Below are positions 1 to 16,896 of a stretch of 64,000 bases of DNA, piece by piece (the first letter of the stretch is position 1; every line of letters starts with the position of its first letter). The translations under genes and the position numbers were made by a program. Below the pieces are notes generated by a model. It was not told the origin of the DNA. It ran no database searches and saw only the letters and a program-made list of their open reading frames with translations. Location of the stretch: contig NC_060021.1 of NCBI RefSeq assembly GCF_021134715.1, positions 8,092,501 to 8,156,500 of the forward strand, given 5' to 3'. Source of the stretch: Daphnia pulex (taxonomy: Eukaryota; Arthropoda; Branchiopoda; Diplostraca; Daphniidae).

Positions 1-645
1 GAGAGAAGATTACACACATAAGGAGAAAAAAGTTTAGCCTTTTTTTGTTTCGTGTTGTTGTTGTTTTACAATTTTTATATGTACAGGGAAGGATGGCTAC
101 AAACAATTGGAGGGTTTTCTTTCTTCTTCATAAAGCCAAAGTGTGTGAGGGACATTTTGTGTGACTCCGTTTTTAACTTCTTTTTGCACGAAACGGCGGC
201 AGCAGATCTCTCGTGAGCGTGGTCGAATTTTTTGCTTTTTTCTCAGATTTTTAATTTTTAAACACCGGGATCCAGAAAATATATATCGACACCAACAAAT
301 CTCTCTATCGTGAAAGCCTCTGGCGCACCGTCGTTGGTTTGGACAATTTCACTCAAAAATCTAAAACGAAAAGAGCTCAAAAACGTCTTGACGCCGCTGC
401 ATATTTTTTGTTTGTTTGTTATAGTTGCGCGAATTTCATTCGAACACTCACACACAAAGTCAGTCACACACTCACATTCTCACATCAAATCTATACGTGG
501 AAATAATTTACAAGAAAAATAACAAAAAATCAGTTTCGGACGAAAGCGCAACGAGAAAGAGACGAAAAAAGAATTTCGATTTTCTTACCTGGTGGTGGTG
601 GTTGCAGGGAATTATTTGGTGTCAAAGATTGCCAATGATTCCTCC

Positions 646-3600
646 TCATTTCCGCTTGGCGTGAAGCATTTCCATGAGTAGTGTTTGTGTCGGCGCACAA
701 CCGTTGAGATGCTTGAAATAGAGATACTCTTCGCCGCGCGACGACATGGCGTGAATGTCGGGTAAGATTGCCAACATTTTAGCAAACTTGTCCTAAATAA
801 TTGACATTCGTTATTTTCCTGTTCCAATAACACTTGGTAGAAACACACGAAAGAATCTTACAGGGATATGAGTGTAGCAGTTAAGCGTGTAGTCGAAAAG
901 AGCTTGCTGGACTTGCTCTTGAGCTTCGACCACGTGGCGTCGATTCATCAATCCCTTGACGTCTGGAAATGGGGTTAACATAAAATGATGCTTATTTCTC
1001 TAGCTCTCAAAGAGGGTGGAAAAAAAGATAAAAATATACCTGAATTGAGAAGCATGAGAAATTTGAGACAGACGTAGTCGGGCACGTCGAAACGGATTTC
1101 GGTGAGCCGGGCCGTGACGTCGTGAAGAGGTTCGGCCAGCGATGGGCAGCCGAGTAGCGACAACGACAAAAGATCAAACTTTTGACCATTGGGCAGCGAA
1201 GATTCGTCAGGCAGGTGATTGTGCAATCGTTGATGTAAATGATCCAAAATCAACAAGTCTGACCAAGCGTGTTGCAGCAATTTCATTTGATCGTCAACCT
1301 AAACGAGCCACACAGAGATAACAATTGAATTTTATTGCACGACCTTGAAACACACACAGAAATAGCTCATATCGCGTTCTCTCTTTCGTTCGACAGTTGG
1401 CGTGCGCGCGAGATGTAAACCGTGAGCCTACTGACCTCAATTTAGACTTGATTAGCTATCGAGGGTGCGCGGACACACGACGGGAGAGAGAGAGAGAGAG
1501 GGAGTTGGTTTTATTGAACGGTTGTGGGGGGAGGCAACGCCGAGTGGATTACGGACGCCCCCGACCTAGTGACCTACTTTCGGGAGCGACGCTATCGACG
1601 TCGTCACCAAGCGCAAAAAACCATACGTTTCTGAGGCAACGGAATGTTACGACGAGATAAAATAATATTTTAAACAAATAAAAACTTCACACACATAAAA
1701 ACAAGGAGCCAATCTTTTTAACATTCTGGTTATTGCCATTAGAGCAAATCGGTCGGACAAGTTTTTTTTCCCGAAAAAATTTCGCTTTCTATAGAGACAG
1801 AGCAGATATGGCAGTCGCTTTCGGTTTCAACATAGACACACACGGTTGGCTAACAAAAGGCTATTTTCCCTTTTGCGGCCGTCCTGCATGAGAGAATTCA
1901 CGGTCAGAAACGAAACGCTAGCAGGCAATCCTCTCTCTCTTTGAAGAAAAAAGGGGAATGACGATGTTAATAATTAACTGGTTATGGTAATAGGGTGTAG
2001 GTAGCTAAGCTCCCAAGGCACCCAATGATGGAATATACACAGTCCAAAAAAAGAAACACACAAAAGAACGAGCTGATATATCTACGGTGTGTGTATGCCC
2101 GTCCCACTGACCTACTCTCTCACGCGGCTTTATACGATTATAATCATCATCATCATAAATAGAAAGCCTACAGGCACACACAACAGTCCTAGACCGTGAG
2201 CCGAGAAAAAACTTTCCATTTCACTCGATCCCAAAAGTCGTATACAACTTTTGGGAGCCCATAAAAATCTAATCATAAGCCACTTTTTCAAAGGGGGTTC
2301 GATCGTTAAAATATGGTGAAACTCCTTCTTCTTACCTTTAGATCCTTGAAATAGTAGGAATTACGTGCCCAGTCCACTTGCGTAAAAAGGTTCTGGTCCA
2401 GCACCTTGCAGAGCAGCTCAAACAAATCCACTTCACACTGATTGTACGTCTAATGGACAATTAAATCATTTAAATTATTATGTCATTAAGATAGAAGAAT
2501 GAATCAAAAACTTACTTGACTCTGTAAAAGACCAAAGAGGGCACTCTGCCACTCTTTGTCGTCGAGAGACTGGACGAATTCGCGGATCAATGGTGGAACT
2601 TTGGCTCCGCTAACCGATCCAGCTCCTACATTGGGACCGTTGTTGTTGCCCAGCATGGTGTTACCTGCTTATCGATACCGAGATAATAAAAAACAAATGA
2701 TTACCGTGTAATAATAATTGAGAATGTTGGATTTTACCGGTCAAAAGTCCCTCGAAATGGAAGGTTTTGGGCGAGACGGATGACGTGGAGGAATGCTGTT
2801 GGGGTGTAGGAGCGCCTCCTCCTCCACCGGACGGGTGATTATTTGGAGAAGGAGTGTGCGGATGAGAAGGACCCGCTCCTGATGTGGTGCCCATATTGTT
2901 ATTATTGTGGTTATTGGTATTGTTGTTATTGTGCGGTCCTCCAGATCCCGATCCAGGTCCCATCGAGCCGTTCAACGAGCCCAATGGCTGGCCAGAAGGT
3001 CCTGTTGTTATGTAATCAAATAATAAAAATTTTGTTAAATTCTTGCCGGATGAATGTTCCTTTTTAGCGGCAACGTCATTTGATCTTGTTGTTCAAATTG
3101 ACCCAATTGGCTTCTAGACTTTTATAATTTTTATTTTCTTTGAAAACTCATTCGATTCCCCCCCCCCTTTCTTTTGTTAAAAGGTAACAAAAGACTCGAT
3201 TGGATATCGGAAGCCCTTTCCCCTATAAGCCCCGAGAGCGTCAAATTGCATTGGGGTCAATCTCTCTAGATGATGGAAGAACAAATCGGACACCCAAAGC
3301 TAGATCAGCGTGTCCCGAACCAACAGCTAATTGGTGTAGGGATCACGAGGGGAAATAAAAATCTGCCAAATGAGAGGAGCAGAAAACAAGAGATGAATTA
3401 TATAAAGACGGGGGGGCTGACCTGGATAGCCGAGTGATGCGGCTAGTGGACTGGGGCTGGAATCGGGACTGGATGTCAATGAAGAAACTTGGGCGATTTG
3501 AATCTCGTGTTTGACACCACCGCCACTGCTGCTACCTCCTCCTCCACCACCGTAGACGCTGCTGCCGGACGGAGAATAGCCCATGTCCGTGTACATTCCA

Positions 3601-6421
3601 GACGATTGTCCGGCTCCGCTGTTGCTGTTGTTGGGCGATGGATTGCTGTTGTTTCCTCCTCCTCCGTTGTTTGCACCTCGAGGTGTCGTCAATTGGCGTT
3701 CGCGCATCACCTGCAACTTGCGCGCCCGATCCCGTTTGTACATGGGTCCAAACTTGTTCCGTCCGCCGCGCATTCGATCCGCTCTCACAGCTATTAAAAA
3801 AAATTAAATTAAAAAATTGATTCAATTATTTACGATCGTCCTGAAATTATATTAGCGTGACGAGTCAGTCGGTGAGAAAGAAACGTCCCGCACGGATGAC
3901 TTTTCAGGTTGGGCCGTGACTCATCAGCACACGAAATATATACCTTTCATTTATTTATTATTATTACATGTCGTCTCCCACCAAGAAAAATAGGCTAAAT
4001 AGATAGTGTCTAATAGATGTAACAGGCCACACCAATTTCGCAATAGGCGCACAGTCGTCGTCGGTGGTGAGAGTCCGTCGTGCACGGCCTCCTCCCGACG
4101 ACGACGACGACGACGACCATGACCTACTTGGCTAACAGAAAGAACTTAGGGACGGCGTTGCCAACTCGATTCTCTCTCATCTCCTTCATTCTCTCTCTTT
4201 TCGGGTTCGAAAGGGGAGAGACAAGGCTCCATAGAAAGACACACACACATAGAAAACTGAAAGCCCAGAGAGAGAGAGACGGGTGTGTGTGTGTGTGTGG
4301 TGACCTACTTTTCTCTCTCAAACAGATTTCAAACGACTGAGGGGAACACCTCCTATACACTACTGGCCGGATAGGGAGAGAAACAACAAAATTGTCAAAA
4401 TAAAACTTTATTTTTTTTCCCCCCTTTTTTTTTTGTCTATGGGCTATATACAAATTTTTGACATCCGTTGGCGATTAAACTGATTGTCGATATCGAAAAA
4501 CTCCCTACTAATTAAGATATTTAAATTGCAATTCTTTAAATTACTATTGTTTTTTAAAGTTGAATTTCAACACAAATTCCCGTAACAAAAAAAAAATGTT
4601 GAGAAATTCGAATGCGTGTGTGTCTATATACTCTATCTTGAAGCGAATAGCCCGAGGGGACGTGAGGCCAACTTTCACTTGTGTGTGTATGCGTTTAGGC
4701 CTATTCTTCTCTCTCTCTCTCCCTCTCACTATATATACCAGACGTATCCGCTGGCTCTCCTTTTTTTTCTTCTTATATAAAATTCCTATCCGAAGATGCT
4801 ACGAAAAAAAACAAACGCCGCAAGGTTTGAATCTCCCCTTGGATCAAATAGATCCAAACGGACACACTTTCACTTTCAGTCTCGTTTGTTTTTTTCTTAT
4901 TTTTCCAACTTGTGTGCCATTTTCTACCCGAGTCTGTAAAACAATTTAACACGAAAATTAAGATCAATTTCGTGATAACCTTGAATCTCTACCACCACCA
5001 CCGACTTTGCGGACTGATTCCTCGGCATTTTCAGTTTCTTGGAAGCGTGTCATCAACAAAGGGAAAGTGGAGGGGCAAAATTTCCCTACACACATACACA
5101 CACCCAAAAAAGAGAGAGAGAGAGAGATGGTTGGGTCTATAGGGATTCTATTCACGTTCCCCTCAAATCATAAAAAGAGAAAGGGACCCCACCAACCAAG
5201 AACCCTACAAACATTTTCTATGGGACCTTTCTCCCCTTGTGGTCATCTTCCCATTTGGGTACTACGTACAATTTTTTGGGTTGAAACAAATCTGGAAAAA
5301 TATATATAAAAATAACAGTTGACAATCAACCCACTTTCCCACGACCCCTACACACACACACATTAACCGATTGTTTTTTAACGGCGCGCGGGAATCGAGG
5401 TGCGTGAAAGGGAAAACAACAACGTGACCCCGATAGACGAAATAAAAAAATTATTATTACCTTCGAGTTTCATGCCGACTTCTAGGCACTTTTGGAATCG
5501 GCAGTAAGGGCACCTCTTGCGTTGTGATTTGTCAATGTGGCAGGATCGATCGGCAACGCAGGAATAGGCCTTTTTGTTCTGAACGGTTCGCTTGAAGAAT
5601 CCTTTACACGATTCGCAGGTGAGCAGTCCGTAATGATAGCCGGAGACTTTATCGCCGCAAACTGGACACAATTCTTCAATTCCTTCCTTGGTGTCGGGTA
5701 AATCGTGTCGTCCTCCACCAGTGGACGATCCGCTGGTTCCAGGAGGTAACGAACTGGGTCCGGACAAGGATGGAACGATGACGATGGGATCCATGAGCGG
5801 CGATGGACTAAGAGCAGCGTTACTGCTGGCCGCGTTGCTCGTCTCGTACTCGCCTGCGTTGTTGGGATTGTAAATGCAATAGGAATCGAGCCCAGTCAGG
5901 CCGACTGTCACGCCCACACCCAATAGATTGCCGCCGGCCTCGACGCCACCAGAGCTCAAGTGACTCATGGCGTAGCTCATGGCCGCCGACGAGCTACTGT
6001 TGTTGTTGTTGTTGTTATTATTGCTACTGGCACTGAACGGCGACAGGGTAGAAGCGGGACTGGACGAGGCCATTGAAAGAGAAGCGATCGACAATTCAGA
6101 ATTGGGAGAGCTCAGCGTCCTGTGATGCAGATGCTGGGCTCCAGCTAGGTGGTGGTGGTGATGATGATGGATTTGCTGTTGTTGTTGTTGCTGTTGTTGC
6201 TGCTGCTGGTGGTGGCCACCAACCATATGATGATGATGTTGGCCATTAGGTCCTGAACCACTGTTTGAACCACCACCACCACCACCGTTGGGACTGTGTA
6301 AACGTTCGATTTGGACGCTGACTTGGTCGGTATCGACAGACGGGCCGGACAAATTAATGAAACCGGACGAACTGTTGTTTCCTAGGGGTGCAATAGCTGC
6401 GAGATCCATGTCAACTAGCAT
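646..6421 (-). CDS. ftz-f1: Nuclear receptor FTZ-F1 (NR5A), 8 coding exons
   Basis: Orphan nuclear receptor that binds DNA as a monomer; in insects it is the competence factor of the ecdysone cascade. Exons: 5461-6421, 3422-3790, 2738-3001, 2516-2664, 2336-2449, 1040-1298, 862-962, 646-792. They sum to 788 codons (787 aa) with matching phases. The N-terminal ~250 residues are low complexity (Gln/His, Ser, Asn, Gly runs). The C4 zinc-finger DNA-binding domain starts with Cys252 ([14 protein letters not shown]) and has the NR5-type P-box CESCKG. The FTZ-F1 box ([20 protein letters not shown]) follows at the start of exon 2. The ligand-binding domain runs from about residue 545 to the end, finishing in an AF-2 helix LLMEML. 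I chose the ATG at 6421 (MLVDMD); the frame is open upstream to 6478 without another ATG. Upstream untranslated exons and alternative alpha/beta N-termini are possible and not resolved. Confidence 0.95.
1562..1580 (-). promoter_or_regulatory. RORE/RevDR2-like nuclear receptor site in ftz-f1 intron
   Basis: On the gene strand this reads AAAGTAGGTCACTAGGTCG. The first eleven bases are a perfect WAWNTRGGTCA (ROR/HR3 and Rev-Erb/E75 monomer site). A second AGGTC half-site follows two bases later, the RevDR2 arrangement bound by Rev-Erb/E75-type receptors; only its last base deviates. It lies in the intron between coding exons 5 and 6. Function is inferred from the motif alone. Confidence 0.5.
2108..2118 (-). 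promoter_or_regulatory. Imperfect RORE in ftz-f1 intron
   Basis: Gene-strand sequence AGAGTAGGTCA, a TAGGTCA half-site with one mismatch in the A/T-rich 5' extension. Same intron as the RevDR2-like site. Confidence 0.3.
4120..4130 (-). promoter_or_regulatory. RORE-like site in ftz-f1 intron 1
   Basis: Gene-strand CAAGTAGGTCA, matching the core AANTAGGTCA. It lies in the 1.7 kb intron between the DNA-binding-domain exon and the FTZ-F1-box exon. Confidence 0.4.
4301..4311 (-). promoter_or_regulatory. Perfect RORE in ftz-f1 intron 1
   Basis: Gene-strand AAAGTAGGTCA, a full match to WAWNTRGGTCA and identical to the first half of the RevDR2-like site 2.7 kb downstream in the gene. It is flanked by a (GT)n run and a CT-rich tract. 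Confidence 0.5.
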
Positions 6422-7631
6422 CTCAACCAAGTGACATGGAAATTCCCCCCCCAAAAAATTAAATAATAATTTGGGCAACGCAGCAGACGCTCACCAGAGG
6501 GCTACACACAACACACCTGTTGCACCACCACTGGTACACACACAAAAGGTGCTATACAGACAGAGAGAGAATTGTAATCCTCACACAAGATTCCTATGCT
6601 GCGTGTACGAGTGAGAGGGAAAAGAAAAAAAATTGAGGACAAGTCTCACACACACACACACACACACACACACTATAGAAACCACCTGGCCGCTTGGTGG
6701 CGTTGCTGAGCTTCGAAAGCGAAAGTTGACCGCAATTCCGAAACACACTGAGCTCTACTGCTGCTGCTGCTGCACATGTGATGACAGAGAGAAATAAATG
6801 TGTACAACTTCTTATTCACACACTCGACGACGACGACATGAGGCCACACTAGCACTTTTTGTTTGATAAAAATGGAGCTATACTTATTTAAACAACCAAC
6901 TTGTCAGAGAGATGGACCCAGACTGAGGACCAACAGTCTTGAATGGCTCAGACTAACCGAATGGTGGGCGGAACTGTGTTTGCTTGGAGGAGGCAGGGGT
7001 CGAAAAAAAATTTGAAAAAATTCGTTTTTCTTTTTTTTCTAAAGACACTGAAAAAGACACGTCCGATCGGACGCGTGTTCTGCGAGAGAGTCCCGACACA
7101 TACACACTGTGTCTGTGTCTGTGTGTGTGTGTGTGTAGCGAGGAGGAGTGAAAGTGACTCCCCGCTTCAAGAAGAAGAGAGAAAAAAGGCACCAAAAAGA
7201 GGTGGGTTAGACATTACTCCGCCCACCACCTCGTGTCCTACTTTCTAACCACCACCTCTTCATAGCAGCAGCAGCAGCAGTCCTCTCCCTTTCTAAGCTA
7301 CATCATCTTTGTGATATTTTCTATATCGACTATTTATTTTTTCGTCAGAGACAAAAATATTCAAATGAGGGGAGGATTTTGGATTTTCATGCAAACGACA
7401 AAAAAAAAGTAAAATTTTCGTAATTTTTCTTTTATTTTTTGTAAATAAATTATTTCCAAATGAATTCCAATTATCTTTTAGTTGTGACCCCATTATTTTG
7501 ATGTGAAAGAGTGGAGAAAAGAATGACGAAATCAGTCACGTTAGAGTCTGTAGGGAGTCTTTTTTTATCGGGACGATATCAAACAAAAGTGAACGTGATT
7601 GCAATAGTGACCCCGATACCTAGTGTGCTAC

Positions 7632-7649
7632 TGCACTAGACCTACTTTC
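7632..7649 (-). promoter_or_regulatory. Repeated nuclear-receptor-like word, copy 1
   Basis: TGCACTAGACCTACT on the plus strand; the gene strand reads AAAGTAGGTCT then AGTGCA. It differs from a RORE only in the last half-site base. The 15-mer recurs exactly at 8224-8238 and, inverted with one mismatch, at 8836-8850. Confidence 0.35.
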
Positions 7650-8207
7650 CAACCGCACGGGTGTTTGGGTAGGGAGACCTCCTAAAAGGTGGGAGAGAAT
7701 GGGGGGGGGGGGTAGCCCTGGGGCCAGTGGTGGTGGGGGGAATGCTGCAATCTGGTTTTCTATATATCCCGCCGTCGTTTGCCTTTATGCACGCTCTAGC
7801 ACACACACACACAACCGGCCCGCCATGCGCACGCGGGCTACCACAAAACTTTCCCTTTTCATTCGCACGGCCGCCATTTTTCTCTCTCTCTCGTGTGTGT
7901 TTGTTTCTATTATATAAATAAATTTCTGCGTGTGTGTGTGGGTCCAATGAAAAGAATGCTTATTGATTCAATGGCGTAATTTTTAGTAAATTTTTTCTTG
8001 GCGGCTGGACAAATTGTTTGACTGGAAAAAACATACAAGAGCCAAAACGAATAGTTATTTCTTATTCAGAAATTTAAAGAAAAAAAGTTGTTAATTTTTT
8101 AGCGTGAGCAAATGGGTCGCCACGGTTTGCGCCGGCGCATCGGTTGACGTCACGCCAAAAATTAAAAAAAAGAAAAAATAAACTCGACGCTCACGCGGGA
8201 TTCGCCT

Positions 8208-8238
8208 TGACCCACTAACACCCTGCACTAGACCTACT
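8208..8238 (-). promoter_or_regulatory. RORE-like site plus repeated word, copy 2
   Basis: 8208-8218 reads TTAGTGGGTCA on the gene strand (TRGGTCA core, one mismatch in the A/T extension). 8224-8238 is the exact second copy of TGCACTAGACCTACT. Two receptor-like half-sites within 31 bases suggest a composite element. Confidence 0.35.
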
Positions 8239-8833
8239 AAAATAAGATGTGGAAAAGAAAAATAAAACAAAAGCGAAACTGCTTTTTCTCGACACGACAC
8301 GTACGTATGTGACCCAACTCCTTGGGGGGAAATTCCGACCCCCATTCAGCGGAATATTTTTGGCACTATAAGATTATTTACATTTGAATTAAAGTTAATT
8401 TCTACCAGTTAAATAAATCTCTTGCACAAATCTTACGCATTTCTCAAGATAGATTAGCAGGTAATTTGGATGGAAATGTTTTGTTCTAGAAAACATTAAA
8501 AGATCATTGGCTGAGCTAGGAAAAATCGGATCAACACAAGTAGCACTACTAATGACGTAAACCTTGAAATGGATAATCGACATCCAATAGCTACGCAATA
8601 AAATGGGAAATGGTGTAATAATAAATTTGGGAAAAAAAAACAGATTTCAATAGAAATTTGAAATTAATGAAATATGTCATATCAGGAATTTATTTTCAAA
8701 TGACTAATTTACGACTTTCATCTTTCTTTGGGTGGGGGGGGGGAATTTTTAAATTTCTCAGAAGGTTACGTGATGAATTTCTCCTCGTGAAGAACGAGAT
8801 CAGAAATTTTATGGAACGAGTGAAATTTAATGT

Positions 8834-8850
8834 AAAGTAGGTCTAGTGTA
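8834..8850 (+). promoter_or_regulatory. Repeated word, copy 3 (inverted)
   Basis: AAAGTAGGTCTAGTGTA on the plus strand, the inverse orientation of the copies at 7632 and 8224. ATGGGTCAC follows at 8851. The sequence CAAGGCCTCG occurs at 8913-8922 and again at 11070-11079 beside another RORE; it is near the FTZ-F1 binding consensus YCAAGGYCR. Confidence 0.35.
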
Positions 8851-9184
8851 ATGGGTCACTGGGACAGCTCCCAACGACACCTCTTTCGCCATATCGATTT
8901 TTCCTTTCATTTCAAGGCCTCGGTGGTAGCCAACAACAACAACAGCAGCAGACAGTTAATCACGAATCGAGTCGCATTTAACCCGCCGTCGTGAAGTGCT
9001 TCATCCTTGAAAAAAAGCTGGTACCCTTATGAATATCGGGTTGCAATTGAAGGTAGAAATGTAGTATTGTTTTTTGGTTGGGTAATATTCATTTAAAGCT
9101 GCTGCTGCAGTATACGTTATATGTATATATACACTTATTCGATTGTCAAGAAGTGGGGTGGTTGGGTGGGAGTTTTGAGGGGGC

Positions 9185-9195
9185 TGACCCACTTG
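9185..9195 (-). promoter_or_regulatory. RORE-like site upstream of ftz-f1
   Basis: Gene-strand CAAGTGGGTCA, matching AANTRGGTCA with the first A/T position replaced by C. One of the spaced set of similar sites across 1.5-11.1 kb. Confidence 0.3.
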
Positions 9196-9490
9196 CCTCA
9201 TTCCCCACTGACTTTGGCACTACTTTCGCTTTTCCACGCTTTCTTTTTTCGACAGCGAAATGATATTTCTTCTTCGTTCGTTCGGGAATGGCGCAACTTT
9301 TAGACGTCTGAATTGAAACCATGAATTCGGGATAATGCCAGTTCTCAAATCGATTCAAGATGGTAAAAAAAAAAAATATAAGAGCGTTCAAGGTTTTCGG
9401 GGGGGATATCGTTCGTTCAGTGCCAGTAATCATCATCCCATATTAATTATTTAAATCTAAATTGAAAGCAGATTGAAAAGAAGAAAAAAG

Positions 9491-10095
9491 TTAATAAGAA
9501 CCGTGTGGCGAATCTTGTTGGAGCTGGATCAGCATCAGGTGATCCTGGTCGTCGGGATCGTTCGACTGAAGGCAGTTGGTTGTTGATTCGTGGGCGGAAA
9601 GAGTTTCGTCTGCTGACGACTGGATGGATTCACGTTTCTGCGGGAAATTAAGACAAACTTCCATCAAGTCTGTTTTATATTTTCATGACAAATGGCGAAT
9701 GTGGGAGAACCTGCTGCGATAGGAAAATCATGGCGTGTGCCGAAGACAAACGGAGTTCTTTGCTGAGTTCGGCCGACGATTCCGACGACGACGTCGACGA
9801 CAACTGGGCAATAACATGAACGAGAAATAAACGTGAATCACGCAATTTCCATGGCGACAGTTGTGAAAAATCGACCGGCGGTGTAATATTGATTCGAGAA
9901 TCGGCAATCACATCAGCCTAAATAACGTGTGTGCAAGTCAAAGAAATATTTTCAATAGCTAGGAACCTGCGATTGCTGAGACCCGTCGGTGCTGCCATCT
10001 GACGGCGATCCATTGCGGTCACGCCCGACCACTCCAGCCGACGTCAGCTCCCTGAACGAAGGCAACAAAGCTGCTGCTTCTGCTTGACATTCCAT
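9491..10095 (-). CDS. Small three-exon gene of unknown function, 160 aa
   Basis: I do not recognise this protein. Exons 9967-10095, 9711-9917 and 9491-9637 have phase-0 GT-AG junctions and join into one 160-codon frame with an ATG and a TAA; introns are 49 and 73 bp. Product: an N-terminal MECQAEAAALLP segment, a Ser/Asp/Gly-rich stretch, a middle segment with INITPPVDFSQLSPWKL, a Ser/Glu-rich run, and an acidic C-terminus ending QQDSPHGSY. No signal peptide or membrane segment. It lies 3.1 kb upstream of the ftz-f1 start on the same strand. It may be an independent gene or a short alternative transcript from the ftz-f1 upstream region; the stop before any clear donor argues against direct splicing into the receptor. 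Confidence 0.55.
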
Positions 10096-11682
10096 TTCTT
10101 TTCTTTTTTTTTCAGTTTCAGTTGACAGTCAATTCGTGATTTCAATTAGAAAATGAAATTGAAATTTCTCTTATTTTTCAAACGATGGGAGATCCTACGA
10201 CGATTCATCAAGGTCGTTATTTGAATGCATTTCAATCTGTTGGATGTGTCAAGTATGTTGAGAAAGAAAAAACAGAAACAAATTTAGGTCGCTGGGTCGG
10301 TTGGTCAATAGGTTACGCGATCACACACACACAGACGATCAAGAAAATCCCGAACTTTAGCCAGTGGCCATTCAAGATAACGACTCGACATGTTTATAAT
10401 ATTTAGAGAAAAAAGAAAAGATGGGAAAAGACACAATGATAGATCAGTGTGTGTATATATATAAAGTAGTAACGTGGCTTAAAAAAGAAGAAGCCTAGAG
10501 TTTCACTTTCACTCGAAAATGGAATGGAAAGAAGAGAGAGAGAAACGGTTAAAAAGTCGTAGAGTGGCAGAGAAAGGAATAATAATCGTCGTCGGTTGGA
10601 AGCTCCCCGGAGCTGAAACGACCCTGAGGCGATGGGTATATAGAGACCCCACAACCAAACCAACCACTTGTATGTCCCACTGACTCACTGAAAATAACAA
10701 AATAAAATATCACACAGACACACCATTCACGCTCTCTCGTTGAAAGAGAAAATGAGGGGATGAAAAACGAAATAAACTAACAACACGACTCACTTTTTTA
10801 CCCTTTCACGAATGTCATTCAACTAAAAAATTGTGTGCACACAAAGACTCGACAGGATTATATGTACGAAATCACGTTGAGTTTTTGTTTTTCACGCGGG
10901 ACACACACTGAACGATGGAAATAGGCACAGTTTTTCGTCGGGGTGTATACGGAATTTTTTGATAATTTTCAAAATAAATTGTTTTGGTGTTGGCTGTGTG
11001 CACACACACACAGCTCGCGAATACGGTGGCGTGTGTGTGCGGGACTGCTGCACGACTGAAAATGTAGGTCAAGGCCTCGCTCTGCAGTGAGCCAGGGCTC
11101 TCTCACGAACCGAATAGTGTGGGCGGCGTTGCCGAAAAAGTCTTTTTTCGCCTCCTCTTCTGCTGCTGTGTGTGTGCTGATTTCCCTTTTCGCTGGCTTG
11201 ACTTGCGACGGATTTGACACGAAATTATTGCGGGTGCACTCACGGACGACTGAGGGTTCGGGAGCGACGCCTTTACCTCACCAGGTGATGCGTCTCTGAT
11301 TGGTGCACCTCTCGAGGGCTCGGGTGTTGGCGGGTTATACATGGTGGTAACTTCTTTTTCTACCCTCCCCTTCTTTTTCGTGGTAAAAATTACTTACACA
11401 AAAGTCGTAACAAACGGACGCAAATAAGCGACGAGTTTAGGACATTCAGAGCCACCTATCAACCGAAACTAGCAGCTTGACCGAAAGTGTTTTTGTATTT
11501 TTTGTCTTCTTTTCGGGTGTACACAATTATTACGAGGCGGGAAGAAAAACAGTTTAAACAGTACGTGTGAGTGTAGTTGTTTGTTTTTTTGGCGTCTTTT
11601 TTATTTTGACGGGATTATTTGATAGACGATACAAATGTGGAAAAAAAAAGCTTTTTCATTCAAAATGGAATTTTGAGTTAAG
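10096..11682. other. Intergenic between the small gene and reptin
   Basis: No supported coding gene. AT-rich with GT/CA runs (for example 11001-11037). A perfect RORE lies at 11061-11071. Frames here are short and of simple composition. Confidence 0.5.
11061..11079 (+). promoter_or_regulatory. Perfect RORE overlapping an FTZ-F1-like site
   Basis: AATGTAGGTCA (11061-11071) fully matches WAWNTRGGTCA. TCAAGGCCT overlaps its 3' end and matches the FTZ-F1 consensus YCAAGGYCR at eight of nine positions. It could serve ftz-f1 from far upstream or the 3' side of reptin; unknown. Confidence 0.35.
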
Positions 11683-13892
<2,210 letters not shown>

Positions 13893-15149: not shown

Positions 15150-15605
15150 GTCGCGATTTTGGTTTTAGTCAAAGTGGCCGAAAAATTTAGCCAGGTGTTT
15201 GTTTTATACCGCCAAGTTTGTAAAAGGTAACACCTGAAGGCATTGTTTCACTTAAAAAAGAAAATTCTGCGACCCATTTATCAAAGGAAAAAATCCCCTA
15301 TTCCCTTGGGTGACGAAAACCAAAACTTGATATGTAAATGAAACAAGTTGGTTGTTTTTCAAAAGGTTAAATTGGCAACTAGAAATCATCAGATTTCTAT
15401 ATGTAGATTTATGTTTATACAGTCGCTTTGATGGTATAATAAATTCGACGTTGTCTTTCGACAAGTTGTCCGTCTGATGGCTTCATCGAAGCAAACGTGT
15501 AATCATTAATACAAATTGATTCTAGTTACGCTTATCTTGTTCTTTTCACGACAATAATTCAAATACTACAGATAAGAAAATATTCTGCGTAATCAATTGC
15601 CAGGT

Positions 15606-16896
15606 TTATTCAGGATAATTTGGACAATGGGAAGAGGATGCGTAATCCACTTTGTAGACCGGTTTATTCGGGGCATTCCCCCGAGAACTGTAATTGCAGA
15701 CGTAAAACTGTTTGTAAGGTTGTCCGGGCGTGAAAGGATATCCGTTGTAATCGTCGTAGTATCCAATAGCTGCACAGCCGATGTGAGTAGTTTCAGCCCA
15801 AACCATTTGCGTGTAATGGCCAATAACTTTACCGTTGTTTCCACTTTGGCAACCACTTCCAGCGATGCGAGTTCAATATCAAATAGGTTTAAAAAACAGA
15901 CAGTACGTGTACGTGAACTGACAGTGTTACTTGAAATCCTCAATCTTGCCGCAGTCCATATAAAATCAACTTCCTGGGACCAGCCATCCTTGCCATTAAT
16001 AATGCTGGTCCAGTCTGACGTGTTTACCAGGTGTGAACTAAATATCATTCCGAGATTTTGGCCATATGCAAATGGCTCCGGTTCTGTTATTGATCACGAA
16101 TGTAGATAATGAATGCCAACGAATAAAATTGGTCACAATAATTTTTCTACCGTGTTTGTATCTCAGGTGTTGCGCCCATACCCAAGCGGCATTAGCCAGT
16201 GCTTCACTCCATTTCTGTGCAGGAAAATTGAATAACAGGTAATTTTGCCAAATCAGTACCTTATTGCTATACGTACCAAGTTGGGTATGAATCCAGCAGC
16301 CGGTTGCGGGCCAGGTGAACCTCGAATTTCCTTACCGGATGCGACTCTCTGACGGAGGTCATTGTGCAGATCCAGAATAAGTTTCACGTCTTCCTCTGTG
16401 GTTCTCAAATCTATCGGATTAGGCCATTCGCCATTGGCACCTCTGAGCTTGTTATATTTCACCAAGTAATTAGATTCTTTCTATCACTTTATTTTTAGAA
16501 TATGTTTCTTTTTATTACCAGAATAGACCAGTGCAAATAGGGGTAGTAAGGTAATCGACGGAATGGAACGGCAATGGGCTGATCGGGATCACTGGATGGT
16601 ATTGGTCGAGAAAGTTGCGTGTTGCAATAATCTAGTTTGATTGGCAAAACCGGATTCTCTTCTAGGCCAGATCAGAACCCGGCAGGGAATTCCCAGTGAG
16701 ATCGATGATGCGGATAAAGAAAAAGGCCTCGATTCCAAAAAGTTATTTGCGGAGCACTTAACACTTCCAGCTGAAAGAAGGAACATGCATGTAACTAAAA
16801 ATTGTTATGCGGCTTAATTTTGTATCTTAAAAAATAACGGTAATAATTTCCTACCATGAAGGACAATAGCAGAGACCAATTTTTACGCAGCATCAT
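15606..16896 (-). pseudogene. CAP/SCP (antigen 5-like) secreted protein gene with two disabling lesions
   Basis: Exons 16855-16896 and 16519-16770 give a signal peptide (MMLRKNWSLLLSFM then LEVLSAP) and an N-terminal extension. CAP-domain exons follow at about 16450-16277 (ILDLHNDLRQRVASG, helix 1 with the conserved His), 16151-16214 (KWSEALANAAWVWA), 15931-16083 (AYGQNL) and 15606-15855 (GHYTQMVWAETTHIGC, the CAP signature, then VCNYSSRGN). Lesion 1: an in-frame TGA at 16672-16674 in exon 2, with clear coding on both sides. Lesion 2: exon 5 ends in the wrong phase for exon 6. Its frame would be kept by one extra base in the T-run near 15958-15966, where the reading switches to DCGKIEDF. The start of the third exon is uncertain. 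It is either a young pseudogene or a normal gene carrying two sequencing errors. Confidence 0.7.

Follow-up and report, generated by a model that had tools for sequence, protein, structure and literature searches.

Control of ftz-f1 by the nuclear receptors HR3 and E75 is a core timing step in insect moulting, and the locus analyzed here raises the question of whether a crustacean controls the same gene through the same kind of DNA element. In Drosophila, the primary papers on DHR3/E75B control of beta-ftz-f1 are reportedly Lam 1997, Kageyama 1997, and White 1997. The stretch of DNA in question, referred to here as the window, is 64 kb of the Daphnia pulex genome (C5:8092501-8156500) and encodes FTZ-F1 on its minus strand at 0.6 to 10.1 kb. 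A preliminary description, made from the letters of the stretch, had proposed that AAAGTAGGTCA occurs at least twice, together with other 11-mers and near matches, over about 10 kb of the introns and upstream DNA of ftz-f1, and all of these words were located again (Table 1). We find that the cluster of the shared word GTAGGTCA at ftz-f1 is real and specific to the locus. A set of HR3/E75-type words this dense points to a similar wiring of the moulting step in crustaceans and flies.

Results

A locus-specific cluster of one word

Every one of the five copies of GTAGGTCA in the window lies within 1570-11071. The genome that was searched comprises 133,188,837 bases on 13 contigs, and its count of 1804 copies per 133.19 Mb corresponds to an expectation of 0.129 per 9.51 kb, compared to five observed in the ftz-f1 span (P = 2.7e-7); random placement gives 0.019 such clusters genome-wide. 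Five copies were reached in 0/100 shuffles of the whole window (mean of 0.98). As a local null, 2000 dinucleotide shuffles were made of window 1501-11100, and none of them reached the observed count for GTAGGTCA (5 copies; shuffle mean of 0.17), AGTAGGTC (7; 0.13), GTAGGTC (8; 0.57), TRGGTCA (10; 2.2), or GTCANTRGGWC, a direct-repeat form with a 2-bp spacer (DR2) (4; 0.06). The comparison loci were nine other receptor genes, represented by 18 stretches of 10 kb (10 of the 30 receptor genes were examined at ±10 kb, ftz-f1 included). GTAGGTCA was absent from all 18 and from window 12001-64000, and TRGGTCA, with 10 copies in 12 kb at ftz-f1, had 19 in the 180 kb of the other receptor loci and 4 in window 12001-64000. 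An equal density of GTAGGTCA in shuffled or unrelated 10-kb sequence, raised as a possibility in the preliminary description, was not seen in the shuffles or in the 18 receptor stretches. Genome-wide, GTAGGTCA and AGTAGGTC (1792 copies) are far rarer than their reversed letters (4644 and 5794), and GTCANTRGGWC occurs 432 times.

A k-mer scan that was not seeded by any motif compared the 12 kb with a 256-kb background for all words with at least three copies (410 7-mers and 111 8-mers). GTAGGTC ranked first of the 410 (8 copies versus 8 in the background; P = 1e-8), and AGTAGGTC ranked first of the 111 (7 versus 3; P = 5e-10). Since the background contains loci L001-L008, which were selected for WAWNTRGGTCA, it is biased against this result.

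The estimate that a perfect 11-mer should be met once per roughly 2 Mb proved about right, as AAAGTAGGTCA occurs 91 times and AATGTAGGTCA 90 times, or once per ~1.5 Mb, with 61 copies of a third 11-mer, AAAGTAGGTCT. Five of the 242 copies of these three words lie within 9.5 kb at ftz-f1, and ten other multi-site 10-kb stretches hold two each; the maximum in one 10-kb stretch was four when the 242 sites were placed at random 20,000 times. For WAWGTAGGTCA (259 genome sites), ftz-f1 is with its three sites the only 10-kb stretch above two.

Several points count against the cluster being exceptional. The three 11-mers were all drawn from the ftz-f1 locus itself (one of them in the present analysis), and the WAWGTAGGTCA family was likewise chosen with the locus in view; at least three of its sites fell in some 10-kb stretch in 914 of the 20,000 random placements (4.6%). 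Pairs of this family within 10 kb elsewhere number nine (one of them, in L031, is a repeat), versus about five expected at random, and the Poisson P values are therefore somewhat optimistic. The looser WAWNTRGGTCA (2148 in the genome) has four copies in the window, a number equalled by 4/100 shuffles, and its three copies in the ftz-f1 span (P = 5e-4; reached in 1/2000 local dinucleotide shuffles) correspond to about 23 equal clusters expected genome-wide. A genome scan with this matrix had been suggested in the preliminary description; taken by itself, the loose matrix does not stand out genome-wide, but the density of the strict GTAGGTCA does. What carries the case is this strict word, together with a gene that fly work had named beforehand.

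Candidate sites and their arrangement

A T preceding RGGTCA together with an A/T-rich 5' side is the ROR/Rev-erb form of binding site (PMC6956161, PMC7086371), and by this resemblance the words at the locus are candidate sites of the ROR/Rev-erb (HR3/E75) type, i.e., putative ROR response elements (ROREs). The eight GTAGGTC words all fall outside the coding exons of our by-eye map, and the GTAGGTCA word of the 5' site is at 11064, upstream of the presumed alpha ATG. The WAWNTRGGTCA core is matched perfectly at 1570, 4301, and 11061 and is unmatched by three GTAGGTCT words (7638, 8230, and 8837) in the stretch from the last alpha exon to the beta start codon. Further near matches, which read TGGGTCA, are found at 3099, 8208, 8310, 8852, and 9185. 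On the negative side, T closes the half-site in three of the eight GTAGGTC words (AGGTCT), a feature expected to weaken a classical RORE.

Two of the sites resemble the RevDR2 layout, which is bound by Rev-erb as a dimer, WAWNTAGGTCA being the monomer site shared with ROR (PMC6956161, PMC7086371). The 1570 site overlaps TAGGTCACTAGGTC at 1563-1576, which adds a second half-site, and 1563-1580 reads GTAGGTCA-CT-AGGTCG, with a last base, G, that is off the RGGTCA consensus; the genome has 11 copies of the form TRGGTCANTRGGTC, versus 32 for the reversed control. Similarly, 2101-2118 reads GTAGGTCA-GT-GGGACG. Two of the 17 genome copies of GTAGGTCANTRGG (36 for the reversed control) are at ftz-f1, 538 bp apart.

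The composite WAGTAGGTCTAGTG occurs five times in the genome (four for the reversed control), and three of these copies, in both orientations, lie at 7634-8848, in a 1.2-kb part of the intron that separates the last alpha exon from the beta start. GGGTCA trails all three at spacings of 24, 16, and 8 bp, multiples of eight that may be accidental. Copies 1 and 3 align over 33 bp at 79% and copies 2 and 3 over 31 bp at 77%, in both cases beyond the core, and an old local duplication is therefore possible. With five genome copies, the composite was judged not to stem from a large repeat family. The two other copies (L029 and L030) have no clear link to moulting genes, and the one in L030 is antisense within a long open frame. 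This triplet and the RevDR2-like sites at 1563-1580 and 2101-2118 are new in this analysis.

Table 1. Candidate sites and by-eye exons at ftz-f1 (window positions; exon ends are accurate to a few bases)
Feature	Position	Strand	Context or basis
AAAGTAGGTCA, perfect 11-mer	1570-1580	-	Late intron between ligand-binding domain (LBD) exons
AGAGTAGGTCA	2108-2118	-	Same late LBD intron as the 1570 site; A/T flank off by one letter
CAAGTAGGTCA	4120-4130	-	Intron between DNA-binding domain (DBD) exon and FTZ-F1-box exon; A/T flank off by one letter
AAAGTAGGTCA	4301-4311	-	Intron between DBD and FTZ-F1-box exons; adjoins GT repeat
AATGTAGGTCA	11061-11071	+	~0.97 kb upstream of presumed alpha ATG; AGGCC comes next
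Near match AAAGTAGGTCT	7638-7648	-	
Near match AAAGTAGGTCT	8834-8844	+	
Near match TTAGTAGGTCT	8230-8240	-	
RevDR2-like site AAAGTAGGTCACTAGGTC	1563-1580	-	Perfect 11-mer RORE, 2 bp, second half-site; intron between LBD exons
AGAGTAGGTCA plus DR2-like second half-site (GTAGGTCAGTGGGAC)	2101-2118	-	Same intron as the 1563 site
TGGGTCACTGGGAC, DR2-like	8852-8865	+	
GAGTCAGTGGGAC, degenerate DR2-like	10674-10686	-	
Composite copy 1, AAAGTAGGTCTAGTG	7634-7648	-	AGGTAT 16 bp on, GGGTCA 24 bp on
Composite copy 2, TTAGTAGGTCTAGTG	8226-8240	-	GGGTCA (8208) 16 bp on
Composite copy 3, AAAGTAGGTCTAGTG	8834-8858	+	GGGTCA (8853) 8 bp on
Exon with presumed beta-specific N terminus (ATG at 6421) and zinc-finger DBD	5461-6421	-	zf-C4 match, protein matches
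Exon with FTZ-F1 box	3422-3791	-	Box sequence
Remaining exons, ~3002-2740, 2665-2517, 2450-2337, 1300-1041, 963-863, 790-640	640-3002	-	By eye; LBD match in one
Coding exons presumed specific to alpha (ATG at 10095)	9503-10095	-	Comparison with D. magna alpha/beta structure

The gene and its presumed regulators

The assignment of the gene to ftz-f1 in the preliminary description is borne out by the FTZ-F1 box at the locus, which is identical to the printed Dappu-FTZ-F1 box (PMC2774871), and by the DBD exon, which matches the Pfam zf-C4 profile (E = 7e-32) as well as FTZ-F1 proteins, including a Daphnia pulex FTZ-F1 entry (96% identity over 35% of the exon). Close FTZ-F1 relatives were also matched on public contigs of up to 26 kb (P0019, 78% identity). 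One LBD exon gave a Hormone_recep match with a score under the curated Pfam cut-off, and two published D. pulex ftz-f1 primers fit the locus with 0 and 1 mismatch. The exon order of the D. magna alpha/beta gene (PMC4854414) agrees with our map, the intron between the DBD and FTZ-F1-box exons being 1.67 kb here versus 2.0 kb in D. magna.

A genome-wide zf-C4 search gave 52 matches, from which 30 receptor positions were derived by eye after split exons had been joined and a single member of a near-identical pair on C10 kept. Genes for HR3 (C12:9738380) and E75 (C2:4505038) are present, and the best PDB matches of their DBDs, ROR-gamma and NR1D1, respectively, mark these domains as ROR/Rev-erb type at the sequence level. 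From our reading of the DBD sequences, E78, HR4, two EcR genes, and RXR are also among the receptor genes; the receptor at C7:11625064 is the one that we take, from its DBD sequence, to be HR4. The C-terminal extension of HR3, which reads the A/T flank, was not found by a pattern search in the 20 kb around HR3.

Four of the 30 receptor genes have WAWGTAGGTCA sites no more than 20 kb from the DBD, namely FTZ-F1 (three sites), HR4, HR3, and E75 (one each). With 3 sites versus 2.3 expected at the other 29 genes, the total is therefore not in excess and the identity of the genes alone is striking; this set of four had not been named before the count. The 10 kb upstream of E75 (L056), picked for holding one site, contain three GTAGGTCA words (7593-7603, 7678-7688, and 2338-2348, coordinates that include three flanking letters), of which two are separated by 85 bp. 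An open frame near these sites had 15 matches, all without informative names, and is not claimed as an E75 exon. The stretch upstream of HR3 has two GTAGGTCA words, the far one beyond opposite-strand open frames resembling other genes, and the stretch upstream of HR4 has one. We regard the sites at these genes as a lead. The site upstream of HR4 (L054) and the 5' site of ftz-f1 (window 11057-11071) share TGAAAATGTAGGTCA.

Discussion

We consider it probable (roughly 0.7) that ftz-f1 of D. pulex carries a distributed HR3 (ROR-type) response array that drives mainly beta-ftz-f1 and is restrained by E75, which would be the insect arrangement in a crustacean. The array would combine monomeric GTAGGTCA sites, two of which are DR2-like, in the introns and the 5' DNA with the composites before the beta start. 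Observed are the words, their excess, and where they lie in the gene, along with genes for HR3 and E75; binding, the direction of its effect, and its timing are inferred. HR3 would bind the monomer sites and switch on ftz-f1, mainly the beta form, and E75 would keep the gene off until nitric oxide or E75 decay frees HR3. In daphnids, E75 would block mainly by acting on the HR3 protein and not by competing for sites, and an E75 dimer on the DR2 sites is an added possibility. An enhancer of fly beta-ftz-f1 is located in alpha-intron DNA (PMC8022936), and in D. magna, FTZ-F1 mRNA comes after HR3, RNA interference against E75 raised FTZ-F1, and a nitric oxide donor prolonged FTZ-F1 (PMC6711514).

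The literature also holds points that speak against such a direct circuit. The authors of the D. magna study judged their data to be consistent with HR3 control of FTZ-F1 but inadequate to conclude it, and, citing earlier work, they report that daphnid E75 suppressed HR3 on a reporter without competing at the response element (PMC6711514). In the silkworm, the timing of HR3 is described as unfit for direct activation of beta-ftz-f1 (PMC12380352), and the wiring therefore need not be universal. The suggestion in the preliminary description that a crustacean has the same HR3/E75-to-FTZ-F1 wiring is supported in part, as far as the gene, a cluster above chance and above the other loci tested, the ROR-type word, the presence of HR3 and E75, and consistency with the D. 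magna data are concerned, but the part of E75 at the DNA is weakened by the lack of competition at the response element.

That these nuclear-receptor elements are used mainly by other receptors, be it E78, HR4, FTZ-F1/HR39 feedback, or EcR/RXR on loose repeats, appears unlikely to us. The genome has about 30 nuclear-receptor genes, E78, HR4, both EcR genes, and RXR among them, and the 11061 site extends into TCAAGGCC, which is near the FTZ-F1 site form. However, the T before RGGTCA and the A/T-rich flank are the ROR/Rev-erb form (PMC7086371). The FTZ-F1-type pattern YCAAGGYCR is hardly enriched, with two of its six window copies in 1-12000, and FTZ-F1 feedback was rejected as the source of the cluster; control through an EcR-type inverted repeat with a 1-bp spacer (IR1) was also rejected, as none was found in window 1-12000 by a pattern search at up to one mismatch.

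It is very unlikely that the enriched element belongs to another factor, as AGTAGGTCTAGTG or AAAGTAGGTC, with an incidental likeness to ROREs and three composites that perhaps arose by local duplication. The concentration of the composite at this locus, the similarity of its copies beyond the core, a half-site ending in T, and a common TAGTG tail that is foreign to ROREs would fit this explanation, but the full GTAGGTCA and TRGGTCA words are also in excess and every composite is followed by GGGTCA. A lucky cluster of a short word through chance or local sequence bias is the least credible explanation, since the choice of words with the locus in view, the loose-matrix clusters expected genome-wide, and the WAWGTAGGTCA triplets of random placements are set against local shuffles that never reached the counts of the five word forms, the absence of GTAGGTCA from the other receptor stretches, and a gene that had been predicted in advance from fly work.

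One of the closest known systems is the control of beta-ftz-f1 by DHR3 and E75B in Drosophila, with the same gene, the same presumed factors, and an enhancer in alpha-intron DNA (PMC10050704, PMC8022936, PMC12380352). In comparison, the Daphnia candidate sites, known so far from their letters, extend over ~9.5 kb, including the late LBD intron, and comprise RevDR2-like sites and a composite triplet. The ROREs and RevDR2 elements of the mammalian clock (e.g., the paired Bmal1 ROREs) share with the Daphnia locus WAWNTAGGTCA monomers, a DR2-like layout with a 2-bp spacer, and several sites per target (PMC6956161, PMC7086371), whereas here the target is a crustacean moulting gene, the best DR2 has G, not A, as the last base of its second half-site, and daphnid E75 reportedly does not compete with HR3 on DNA (PMC6711514). 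In Caenorhabditis elegans, NHR-23 (HR3) has several ROREs per target, shows autoregulation of the receptor gene, and has NHR-25 (FTZ-F1) as a possible target; that study used a loose RGGTCA with chromatin immunoprecipitation and scrambled sites (PMC9377799), as opposed to the sequence-level evidence in Daphnia. The D. magna work followed the same E75/HR3/FTZ-F1 cascade by mRNA, nitric oxide donor, and RNA interference, and in the main text of that paper, the terms "promoter," "binding site," and "RORE" occur 0 times and "response element" occurs once, about the reporter (PMC6711514). To that cascade, the present analysis adds candidate sites within the ftz-f1 locus. Among the titles and abstract openings listed by searches of an open-licence library, none reported HR3 elements for a crustacean ftz-f1, which is no proof of absence.

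The candidate sites are named and editable, and direct HR3 control can therefore be tested in a crustacean. If the control is direct, this would point to a cis-wiring older than the split between insects and branchiopods and would help to explain shifts in moult timing by nitric oxide and endocrine disruptors. A more speculative idea, to which we give little credence, is that one cis-code serves the crustacean moult timer. E75, HR3, HR4, and FTZ-F1 all carry GTAGGTCA, and ftz-f1 would add a dedicated composite, AAAGTAGGTCTAGTG followed at 8, 16, or 24 bp by GGGTCA, as the target of an E75 dimer or of E75 paired with HR3, so that a ROR/Rev-erb oscillator of the mammalian-clock type might run the moult. 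The reported lack of competition between daphnid E75 and HR3 at the response element counts against this idea.

Some further observations were made along the way. On C2, AAAGTAGGTCA and TATGTAGGTCA lie on opposite strands 52 bp apart (C2:5009008 and C2:5009060) and mark another candidate HR3/E75 target. Elsewhere in the genome list, AAAGTAGGTCA forms just one pair within 10 kb (C5:351868/353128; L031 870 and 2132), which has matching inverted flanks, like the ends of a mobile element, and was counted as a repeat. Within the window, AAAGTCGTA is found at 2234-2242, 8710-8718, 10553-10561, and 11401-11409, i.e., four times in 12 kb versus once in the 256-kb background, and we know of no factor for this word. 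Next to ftz-f1, on its upstream side and in the same orientation, is an open frame at window 12446-13219 (minus strand) that by eye resembles a RuvB-like ATPase, and open frames at 15593-16480 (minus strand) resemble, also by eye, a CAP/SCP-domain protein.

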